Below, piece after piece: positions 17,236-24,199 of a stretch of 64,000 nt of DNA. Source of the stretch: Secundilactobacillus kimchicus JCM 15530 (lineage in GTDB: Bacteria > Bacillota > Bacilli > Lactobacillales > Lactobacillaceae). Within the stretch, counting starts at the first letter, position 1. The number at the start of each line of letters is the position of its first letter. The notes beneath the pieces are model-generated. The model ran no database searches. It was not told the origin of the DNA and worked only from the letters and a program-made list of their open reading frames with translations. The stretch lies in contig NZ_AZCX01000006.1 of assembly GCF_001433995.1 (NCBI RefSeq), forward strand, positions 1 to 64,000, written 5' to 3'. The position numbers were made by a program, and so were the translations under genes.

Positions 17236-18107
17236 GACAGCTTGTTTGTGGCAGTTGGGATGTGAAAGTAGGTTAAATGAGTCAGATCTATGACGCATCG
17301 GTAATGGGTAAAATTGTGATTTCGAGGTTGGCGGCCCGGCTGTTTGGGAATCACCACCTGATTAAGGTAGTCAAAGGCTGCCGAAATGGCGCCTTCAGCG
17401 GTTATGGGCGTTGGATGCCCCCAACGGTTGATGGCCGTTCGGATAAATCGGTTGGTGGGGACCGGCCCGGTTGGCAATTCACGCCCCTGCTGAACCCATT
17501 CGGTGGCAGCCGGACCAAGATTAGCTAATTCGGGAACGTTAAGGAAGGCTAACAGCCGCTTTTCATGATTAGCTAGGACCGGCGTATTGGTTAAAACGCC
17601 GACCGAATTTGGGCTGGCGCGAAGGGTGAGAGTCGTTGGTTCAATCACGACACTAGCGCCAGTTTGATCAGCTATTAGCCAATGAAACGGATAGACCTTA
17701 TTTTCGGCGAACCAAACGCTGGCTACTAAAGCGACGTTCGGGAGCTCTGCGACGACTTCCGCCACGGTTTTGTGGCCACTCAACACCCACATGATGAAGT
17801 CTTGTGGCGTTAAGTTGATGCGGCCCGTTTGGGGTGTGTGATAGTAGTGAACGGCGTGGGGCAGATACAATTCGGCACAGGCCAGGCCGTCGGCGTTCAA
17901 TCCGTCTCCTAATAGGTCATGGCCGTTAAGGTGGCGGCTAGCGCCAACGATGCGGGTCTGGGTGACTTGTGCGTCGCCGTACACCGGCTGCCAGGTCGTT
18001 TGCGCAGCAAAGGACCGTGGGACCCACGGGTCGACATTAGGAAAATCCATCGTTCGAGCTAACAGAACGGTTTGATCGTTAGCGGTTAGGGTTAAACTTG
18101 TACACAT
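17217..18107 (-). CDS. Linear amide C-N hydrolase (penicillin V acylase / choloylglycine hydrolase family)
   Basis: An Ntn-hydrolase of 296 aa. Met1 is followed by Cys2 (MCTSLTLTA), which becomes the N-terminal nucleophile. ARTMDF carries the conserved Arg-Asp region, and GLNADGLACAELYLP the family core. The sequence resembles penicillin V acylase-type members more than true bile salt hydrolases. Members may also cleave N-acyl homoserine lactones. The ATG at 18107 follows TGGAGGCG, and its position is fixed by the need for Cys2. An open frame upstream to 18341 reads through palindromic repeats and is not coding. The 119-bp repeat array lies directly upstream in the sense direction. Confidence 0.88.
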   Translation of the reverse strand: MCTSLTLTANDQTVLLARTMDFPNVDPWVPRSFAAQTTWQPVYGDAQVTQTRIVGASRHLNGHDLLGDGLNADGLACAELYLPHAVHYYHTPQTGRINLTPQDFIMWVLSGHKTVAEVVAELPNVALVASVWFAENKVYPFHWLIADQTGASVVIEPTTLTLRASPNSVGVLTNTPVLANHEKRLLAFLNVPELANLGPAATEWVQQGRELPTGPVPTNRFIRTAINRWGHPTPITAEGAISAAFDYLNQVVIPKQPGRQPRNHNFTHYRCVIDLTHLTYFHIPTATNKLSKTVIS

Positions 18108-18154
18108 AATAGCGCCTCCATTATTAACGTCTACAATTGGCCAACTATTGGGGT

Positions 18155-18193
18155 GGACACAACGGGATTGAGCGGTTCTGGGAACCCGTGTCC
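18155..18193 (-). repeat. Degenerate, shortened unit at the edge of the hairpin array
   Basis: GGACAC (18155-18160) and GTGTCC (18188-18193) match the outer helix of unit B, with AACCC before GTGTCC as in B, but the inner helices are lost. It is followed by the same CACTCTAAACGTG linker that separates the full units. Confidence 0.6.
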
Positions 18194-18931
18194 GGCTACA
18201 CTCTAAACGTGCTCCACAGCGCAACTCCCTCCTGTATAAGCACGATAGCCAAAACCTCCAGGCCCAGGAGCTTCCGGCTATCGCCCTTATACTCCGGGAG
18301 TTAACCGCGCTGTTCCACACTCTAAACGTGTTCCAGGACACTGACCGCTACTGCGTAAGCCAAAAGCCCAAAGAATCCAAGCCCAGGATTCTCCGGTCTT
18401 CTGCCTTACGCTCTGCGGTCAACCCGTGTCCTTGCACACTCTAAACGTGTTCCACAGCGCAACTCCCTCCTGTATAAGCACGATAGCCAAAACCTCCAGG
18501 CCCAGGAGCTTCCGGCTATCGCCCTTATACTCCGGGAGTTAACCGCGCTGTTCCACACTCTAAACGTGCTCCAGGACACTGACCGCTACTGCGTAAGCCA
18601 AAAGCCCAAAGAATCCAAGCCCAGGATTCTCCGGTCTTCTGCCTTACGCTCTGCGGTCAACCCGTGTCCTTGCACACTCTAAACGTGTTCCACAGCGCAA
18701 CTCCCTCCTGTATAAGCACGATAGCCAAAACCTCCAGGCCCAGGAGCTTCCGGCTATCGCCCTTATACTCCGGGAGTTAACCGCGCTGTTCCACACTCTA
18801 AACGTGCTCCACAAGGCAAACCGCGGCCATGTAAGGGAAACAGGCAAAAACTCAAAGTCCAGAGTTTCTACCTGTCCCCCTTACATTCTGCGGTTTAACC
18901 GCCTTGTTCCACACTCTTTCCTTCACTATAC
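18194..18931 (-). repeat. Array of six structured palindromic units, exact 119-bp period
   Basis: Units are A1 18216-18313, B1 18335-18432, A2 18454-18551, B2 18573-18670, A3 18692-18789 and C 18811-18907. Starts are 119 bases apart, each a 97-98 base hairpin plus a 21-base linker containing CACTCTAAACGTG. Each unit has the plan: 7-bp helix 1, 7-bp helix 2, 4-base bulge, 7-bp helix 3, 44-45 base head, helix 3', 3 bases, helix 2', 4 bases, helix 1'. Helix sequences differ completely between A, B and C yet remain paired (ACAGCGC/GCGCTGT, AGGACAC/GTGTCCT, ACAAGGC/GCCTTGT). The three A copies are identical. The relative near 23989 sets the likely sense strand as minus, upstream of the acylase gene. 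Confidence 0.9.
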
Positions 18932-23978: not shown

Positions 23979-23988
23979 GAAGTGCGGA

Positions 23989-24085
23989 ACAAGACGGGTT
24001 GATTGCGGAGGCTAAGCGGGGAACTCAAAAATCCTGAGTTTGGATTTTATGAGTTTTTCGGTTAGCTAGTAGCAATCAGTCTTGA
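23989..24085 (+). repeat. Single full-length copy of the structured hairpin element
   Basis: The architecture equals that of the 18.2-18.9 kb array read on the other strand. Helix 1 is CAAGAC/GTCTTG, then four bases GGGT, helix 2 TGATTGC/GCAATCA, three bases GGA, helix 3 GGCTAA/TTAGCT, and four bases AGTA on the return. Flanks GTGCGGAA upstream and GGAGCACGTT downstream match the array linkers GTGTGGAA and GGAGCACGTT. Length is 97 bases. It lies between the transporter stop (23978) and PepV. Confidence 0.85.
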
Positions 24086-24111
24086 GGAGCACGTTAAAGA
24101 AGAAGTGCGGA

Positions 24112-24130
24112 GCAAGGCGGTTTGCCTTGG
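24112..24130 (+). repeat. Miniature copy 1 of the hairpin element
   Basis: GCGGAG precedes CAAGGC-GGTTT-GCCTTG, and GGGAACACGTT follows. Only helix 1 and its GGTT linker remain; the flanking linker bases are kept. Confidence 0.75.
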
Positions 24131-24156
24131 GGAACACGTTAAAAAGAAGTGCGGAA

Positions 24157-24173
24157 CAAGGCGGTTTGCCTTG
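24157..24173 (+). repeat. Miniature copy 2 of the hairpin element
   Basis: CAAGGC-GGTTT-GCCTTG is preceded by AAGTGCGGAA and followed by AGAACAC. It ends 26 bases before the pepV start, next to its ribosome site. Confidence 0.75.
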
Positions 24174-24199
24174 AGAACACACAAAAAGGAGCACAAACC

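Follow-up and report, generated by a model that had tools for sequence, protein, structure and literature searches.

Genomic context and organisation of the array

The stretch of DNA analysed here (the window) comprises 64,000 nucleotides of the genome of Secundilactobacillus kimchicus JCM 15530. It carries an array of six abutting hairpin units at 18205-18917, flanked by two genes with divergent starts, a choloylglycine-hydrolase-family gene on the minus strand (PF02275) and gene 19026 on the plus strand, for which no Pfam match was obtained at E ≤ 1e-5. The array is not located at a stop codon. The units are 119 bp long, except for the last one (118 bp), with a start-to-start spacing of 119 bp. 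Scores of the covariance model R1 on the minus strand are 126.7 bits for unit A1 (18205-18323), 126.7 bits for B1 (18324-18442), 126.6 bits for A2 (18443-18561), 126.8 bits for B2 (18562-18680), 126.6 bits for A3 (18681-18799) and 117.9 bits for C (18800-18917); A1, B1 and C were also identified by RNA folding. All six units score best on this strand (118-127 bits vs. 38-40 bits on the plus strand). At 18183-18204 (minus strand), where the model gave no hit, the sequence shows 22 bp that remain from one end of an additional unit and resemble the corresponding end of unit B.

An initial annotation had described a six-unit array with a period of 119 bp, which is borne out by the sequence, a repeat search and model hits on all six units. 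The starts given there (18216 and so on) mark the 98 bases that run from helix 1 to helix 1', whereas whole units start at 18205 and so on. The three A copies had been called identical and the two B copies nearly so. The 98-base stretches are indeed identical among the A copies, as they are between the B copies, and whole units differ by one base (A2 and A3 from A1, B2 from B1). Whole 238-nt repeats were detected by the repeat search, and duplication of an A-B pair of 238 bp is the probable origin of the ABAB part. That a class never adjoins itself is true of the window array, but not of other arrays of the same genome, one of which consists of five near-identical copies in tandem (period 119) and another of three identical units (period 125). 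The array was rightly described as neither a CRISPR, since the units abut with no unique spacers between the repeats, nor a terminator series, since the 3' end CGTTT is followed by CRGC or AGAG and by no longer T-run in the copies examined. The six-unit array need not have a function of its own.

A further copy that had been noticed near 23989 is real. It is located at 23979-24096 on the plus strand, in an orientation opposite to that of the array, and was identified from its sequence and by the model (104.5 bits). It occupies the typical place, directly 3' of the TAA stop codon of a DcuC-family gene (PF03606, 22410-23978). It is followed on the same strand by a shortened copy consisting of the basal part only (24102-24141, 29.7 bits, E 1.2e-5) and by a second shortened copy (24146-24184) that is weak when taken alone (16.6 bits, E 0.048). 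The stop codon of the DcuC-family gene is followed by one to three units in seven of the 12 relatives fetched and by none in the other five. The gap that holds the array in the window is free of units in all eight relatives fetched out of 14 in the genus. One of these eight, G002, instead harbours a unit behind the stop codon of the right-hand gene, the ortholog of gene 19026. At this site (L176, 1240-1501) a full unit is succeeded by 3' halves that are repeated and have a tail in common.

Fold, structured strand and covariation

At its base, each unit has a short GTG/CAC helix, which a 4-by-4 internal loop separates from helix 1. A one-sided bulge of 4 bases lies between helices 1 and 2, and a 3-by-4 loop between helices 2 and 3; these three helices are 7 bp each. 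Helices 4 and 5 continue the stem up to the apical loop, which has 7-8 bases. The hairpin is 118-119 nt in length, with AGAG at the 5' end of the element and CGTTT at the 3' end. Folds of A, B and C reproduce the plan of three helices with fixed bulges proposed in the initial annotation, and in both sequence and folds all 21 bp of the three 7-bp helices are formed in A, B and C. What had been taken for a structured head is the continuation of the same stem by the two further helices and the apical loop. The helix sequences of A, B and C had also been regarded as unrelated; however, all three have TAAG/CTTA in helix 3 and the same inner C-G pairs in helices 1 and 2.

RNA folds of A, B and C yielded z values of -8.0 to -11.1 on both strands, with none of 200 shuffles being as stable. 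The fold energies range from -66.5 to -69 kcal/mol for minus-strand RNA, compared to -51 to -54 kcal/mol for plus-strand RNA. The helices of 23 units from the same genome contain 32 G.U and 7 A.C oppositions when read on the minus strand, but 32 A.C and 7 G.T on the plus strand. Since G.T is also tolerated better than A.C in DNA, these counts fix the strand, but not the molecule. Of 264 distinct cores, 255 fold better on the model strand, a value with some circularity, since the model derives from that strand and also set the orientation of the cores. In the array, the structured strand corresponds to the minus strand, opposite to the one drawn initially.

Comparison of the 23 units from the same genome showed that 93.5% of cells are paired and that both sides have changed in 27 of the 37 pairs (minus strand). 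When 37 copies, each from a different genome or record, were aligned, 95.9% of 1,627 cells were paired, in an alignment that is somewhat biased towards the model, since all copies were found with it and the copy from the window's own genome was in its training set. Among the 37, one of G317, G318 and the Lapidilactobacillus record may share its species with another genome of the set. The covariation for which a check had been suggested is present: changes on both sides occur in 38 of the 44 pairs, with 541 such cells against a shuffle mean of 148. If the partners are slid by 1-3 columns, only 35-46% remain paired. RNAalifold recovers 43 of the 44 pairs unprompted, and the TAA/TTA core of helix 3 is nearly invariant (36 of 37 copies). 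The shape is thus kept while the letters of the helices change in pairs. The earlier view that the structure is the object of selection is strongly supported by this retention of pairing through double-sided changes, both within the genome and across the 37 records.

Distribution of the family

The window array is one cluster of a large family of hairpin repeats dispersed over the chromosomes of many lactobacilli. In the genome that contains the window, a DNA search found 29 matches, and model R1 found 38 copies above 60 bits among 77 matches, the weaker of which are mostly reverse-strand echoes. Matches were obtained in 19 of 41 genomes near the source, namely in all 15 of the same genus, in 3 of 10 further members of the same family and in 1 of 16 from other families of the order. 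This sole match outside the family (E 0.0015) is an A+T-rich hairpin without the family motifs. A model search of lactobacilli, which the initial annotation had recommended, was extended to 301 Lactobacillaceae genomes with at most 12 candidates scored per genome; at E ≤ 1e-6, 137 of them match, representing 24 of 40 genera, with E-values per genome reaching 1e-31. S. paracollinoides features 42 full copies in 400 kb (one per 9.5 kb), which by extrapolation corresponds to several hundred copies per genome if this stretch is typical. Copy number and sites differ between relatives. Since loci were drawn by model score, weak copies are under-represented in the material.

The family looks confined to Lactobacillaceae in the genomes sampled. 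Outside of it, a 19-base pattern was found in one record each of Paenibacillus and of Flavobacteriales, Verrucomicrobia and Armatimonadetes MAGs. The covariance model found nothing in the Paenibacillus, Verrucomicrobia and Armatimonadetes records. In the Flavobacteriales MAG (L082, 7977-8000) the first 24 model positions match before the locus end cuts the hit (E 0.12), which may reflect contamination, chance or a distant copy.

At gathering scores, comparison with Rfam 15, also recommended initially, returned a single tRNA for the entire window and no hit within the array, while relaxed thresholds added only sub-threshold miRNA models. A blastn search of 18190-18930, a query that represents the sequence of this sub-family only, gave no match in plasmid and phage collections. 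No paper on the family was found in the literature searched, which left most subscription journals outside. The family is apparently undescribed and unnamed.

Placement at stop codons

The position of the copies relative to genes was determined from the ends of sense ORFs of at least 120 codons. The set comprised 205 elements (203 distinct), taken from 146 of 158 matches in the 92 loci searched, 42 of 62 matches in S. paracollinoides and 17 of 25 further matches. Reverse-strand echoes, contigs present twice and one 49-bit match in L095 were dropped from the 158, and echoes and partial matches from the 62. Copies were judged only where there was enough flank and no abutting unit, leaving 169 on the 5' side and 170 on the 3' side. 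A sense stop codon lies within -40 to +60 of the 5' end in 74 of the 169 copies and within -11 to 0 in 62. In 32 copies it is located at exactly -1, such that the TAG consists of a T and the first AG of the element. On the mirrored 3' side, a sense stop anywhere in -40 to +60 was observed in only 2 of 170 copies. ORFs that enter the element in other frames end at offsets 6, 20 or 34. As there are only 10 such cases, random capture of ORFs by the TAG of the element does not explain the 32.

A second set from L. mulengensis and L. lanxiensis (70 of 73 matches used) gave a similar picture: the stop codon is in range in 30 of 70 copies, at -11 to -1 in 29 and at -1 in 17, compared to 0 of 70 on the 3' side. 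These 70 include 22 orthologous pairs and are hence not 70 independent sites, and two of them (L282, L302) also belong to the first set (as L096, L098). The preferred position for the 5' end of a copy is at the stop codon of a gene in the sense orientation. In the empty ortholog read for the pair L202 and L210, the C-terminus of the protein is unchanged. A further case is a unit that starts 2-4 bases 3' of the stop codon of a gene which we take to be rpsN on the basis of its protein sequence; it was observed in S. paracollinoides and in four Levilactobacillus records, in one of which the locus ends within it.

A broader classification of 194 copies placed 61 at the stop codon of a long ORF and 24 at that of a shorter ORF, with 8 having a stop codon elsewhere in range. 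A T-run of at least 5 precedes 19 copies (7 on the 3' side), and 82, including units inside arrays, show none of these features. Most S. paracollinoides copies are not at the stop codon of a long ORF; the neighbours of the 42 copies are divergent in 11 cases, convergent in 9, sense in 8, antisense in 11 and incomplete in 3, with no preferred orientation. In the bases before the element, 232 copies revealed no insertion motif, as no position exceeds 0.26 bits and only a weak A/T preference is apparent. From their placement, we infer that copies behind stop codons are part of the mRNA.

Possible movement, core replacement and half copies

S. paracollinoides (G006) and G002 are too diverged for the exact edges of filled and empty sites to be read, and the closer pair L. 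mulengensis (G317) and L. lanxiensis (G318) was used. Ten loci were aligned for such a comparison and seven of them examined (all but L270, L278 and L286), of which one is clean (L289/L311). Here, G318 reads GGGATAA-CTATAT, while G317 has a unit from AGAG to CGTTTCCG between GGGATA and CTATGT. The copy is located at a stop codon, there is no target duplication and the same intrinsic terminator lies downstream in both species. This pair is equally compatible with insertion and with precise loss. In L279, L281 and L290 the core is absent from G318, but the flanks are altered; L288/L318 is occupied by a different core, and L275 and L287 did not align across the site.

Comparison of 22 locus pairs occupied in both species (L277/L308 and cross-matches between paralogs were left out) resulted in core identities of 0.92-1.00 at 12 sites and 0.68-0.84 at 10. 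Identity over the 300 bases upstream of these 10 sites remains 0.85-0.98, and the replaced cores are of a different class, which has its own pairing. For 15 of the 20 replaced cores another sampled copy in the same genome is 0.91-0.97 identical; the remaining five (L244, L241, L272, L293, L304) have no such close match among the sampled copies of the same genome (0.77-0.87). In L250/L253 mainly helix 2 is altered, on both arms, and in L284/L304 mainly the inner part. At the shared site L243/L244, a half copy found in one species carries a helix-1 arm matching the other species' core, as though core and half copy had swapped ends.

Half copies are unevenly distributed around the cores. In L. 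mulengensis and L. lanxiensis, a second 3' end without a 5' end follows within 260 bases downstream of 29 of 70 cores, and the same was seen upstream of 1 of 70. In S. paracollinoides 12 of 41 cores are followed by such a 3' end and 1 of 41 is preceded by any 3' end. Half copies behind cores could be either stacked older copies or the second part of a functional full-plus-half unit.

Many single cores carry a conserved tail 3' of GTTT, which reads CGGC.A.GT.. in Secundilactobacillus and CRGAGGCYGCCAGG.. in Levilactobacillus and is absent between the units of the window array. In L194 (G006:C1:100001-120000, approximately 17599-18117) the repeat comprises the unit plus its upstream flank (..CATAATT|AGAGCG), which is the same each time, giving a tandem period longer than that of the window array.

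Origin and possible role

Based on these results, we consider it probable (roughly 70%) that the array arose by local expansion of a REP-like repeat that is non-coding and dispersed over Lactobacillaceae chromosomes, with copies that lie preferentially at stop codons, move and exchange cores. The two options of the initial annotation, an array of structured RNAs and a non-autonomous mobile element, each capture part of this answer. Copies may spread by a precise, strand-specific process that reads the single-stranded hairpin, and cores could be swapped by exchange between copies, either through gene conversion or through re-insertion at occupied sites. Stop-adjacent copies would be transcribed as a 3' untranslated hairpin that might shield the mRNA end or affect termination, in the manner of an E. 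coli REP. A role in mRNA cannot hold for every copy, given that the window array does not follow a stop codon and that no preferred orientation of neighbouring genes is seen over the 42 S. paracollinoides copies; both observations contradict the reading of every copy as a 3'UTR element.

A bolder proposal, which we rate as rather unlikely, is a new class of selfish element that targets stop codons. Its bulged hairpin would be recognised by shape on the sense strand, would enter immediately 3' of stop codons without target duplication and then trade cores with other copies, and would be moved by an enzyme of neither the Y1 nor the RVT_1 type, which might act on mRNA, terminating ribosomes or open DNA at the ends of genes.

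It is unlikely that the copies are regulatory RNAs first and foremost, i.e. 3'UTR or stand-alone hairpins that bind a conserved partner and are selected site by site, with movement being rare and incidental. Such a role would account for the pairing and fixed bulges kept over 37 records, the near-invariant TAA/TTA core of helix 3 (36 of 37), the sense orientation at stop codons and the occupation of the same stop codon in the DcuC-family gene (7 of 12 relatives) and the presumed rpsN. It agrees less well with a copy number and sites that vary among relatives, including the five of 12 without a unit at the DcuC stop codon, with an array between divergent genes and with S. paracollinoides, in which most copies are away from the stop codons of long ORFs.

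Mobilisation by a Y1 (HUH) transposase acting on single-stranded DNA, as for a REP/RAYT or IS200-type element, is very unlikely, even though a strand-specific hairpin, the missing target duplication, a TAG at the end of the element and G.T pairs would all suit it. Y1 proteins were found in 83 of the 301 genomes, a count of draft assemblies in which RAYTs are taken together with other Y1 proteins, and the window's own genome has two matches. However, they are not associated with the element (44 of 137 genomes with it, 39 of 164 without it, p 0.12), and G002 and G006, which are among the genomes richest in copies, gave no Y1 match at E ≤ 1e-10. Bases before the element are also not conserved (at most 0.26 bits per position).

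Highly improbable, too, is a reverse-transcribed element, for which hairpin RNA would be copied into DNA at gene ends, giving full copies with a sharp 5' end and 5'-truncated copies downstream. The excess of copies lacking a 5' end behind cores (29/70 and 12/41) over those in front of them (1/70 and 1/41) fits this idea, as does the clean site without target duplication, but half copies also arise by deletion after tandem duplication. RVT_1 was absent at E ≤ 1e-10 from the window's genome and from S. paracollinoides, and among the 301 genomes it was found in 31 of 137 with the element and 38 of 164 without it, i.e. with no association. Chance or artefact, in the sense of palindromic intergenic DNA without common origin, has a next to negligible probability in view of E-values down to 1e-31, constant length and pairing statistics, and is refuted by the covariation of the 37 copies.

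A repeat that is present in nearly half of 301 Lactobacillaceae genomes, by extrapolation with hundreds of copies in some, seems to be nameless. With its shape kept while letters turn over, and with different cores at the same sites in close species, it offers a natural record of hairpin evolution within a genome. If stop-adjacent copies act on mRNA ends, many genes of food and gut bacteria could be affected at once, and if the stop codon is a true insertion target, the mechanism would be new.

Comparison with known repeat systems

Integron attC sites are imperfect hairpins with extrahelical bases in which shape rather than sequence is kept. The hairpin family likewise keeps shape and not sequence. 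In contrast to attC sites, many copies are solitary, array units abut with no room for a cassette, and placement is at chromosomal stop codons.

Similarities in size, dispersed intergenic placement and hairpin fold were found to ERIC, RU and MITE-type repeats, such as the enterobacterial repeats RU-1 to RU-3 (103-168 bp), but what the hairpin family shows is covariation instead of a conserved sequence. Terminal inverted repeats and target duplication are the defining features of MITEs, and the one clean filled/empty site of the family has no target duplication.

The closest resemblance is to REP and BIME repeats with RAYT. These are dispersed intergenic palindromes near or overlapping gene ends; the ends of GTAG-REPs often supply the TAG stop to flanking ORFs, and G-T pairing in the stem is noted (PMC3733652). 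The hairpin family shares these features, including a high copy number between genes and near gene ends. However, it is 118-119 nt long with ordered bulges, compared to 20-40 bp for GTAG/CGTC REPs, and it has AGAG and CGTTT ends instead of a conserved GTAG/CGTC tag (232 copies). A link to a Y1 transposase, as in REPs with RAYT, is not seen in 301 genomes. The family is also strongly one-sided at stop codons with tandem units in the same orientation; BIMEs are clusters of REPs that alternate in orientation, whereas the arrays read here (window, L009, L010, L013, L017) are all of one orientation. E. coli REPs within 15 nt of a stop codon are reported to stall ribosomes, and about 11% of REPs are that close by the count given there (PMC12306157), compared to 62/169 and 29/70 in the hairpin family. 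Ribosome-stalling REPs of E. coli may serve as a possible model for stop-adjacent copies. Taken together, we file the family as a REP-like kind: it departs from REPs in size, tag and transposase and is not a REP, but it acts most like a set of oversized ones.
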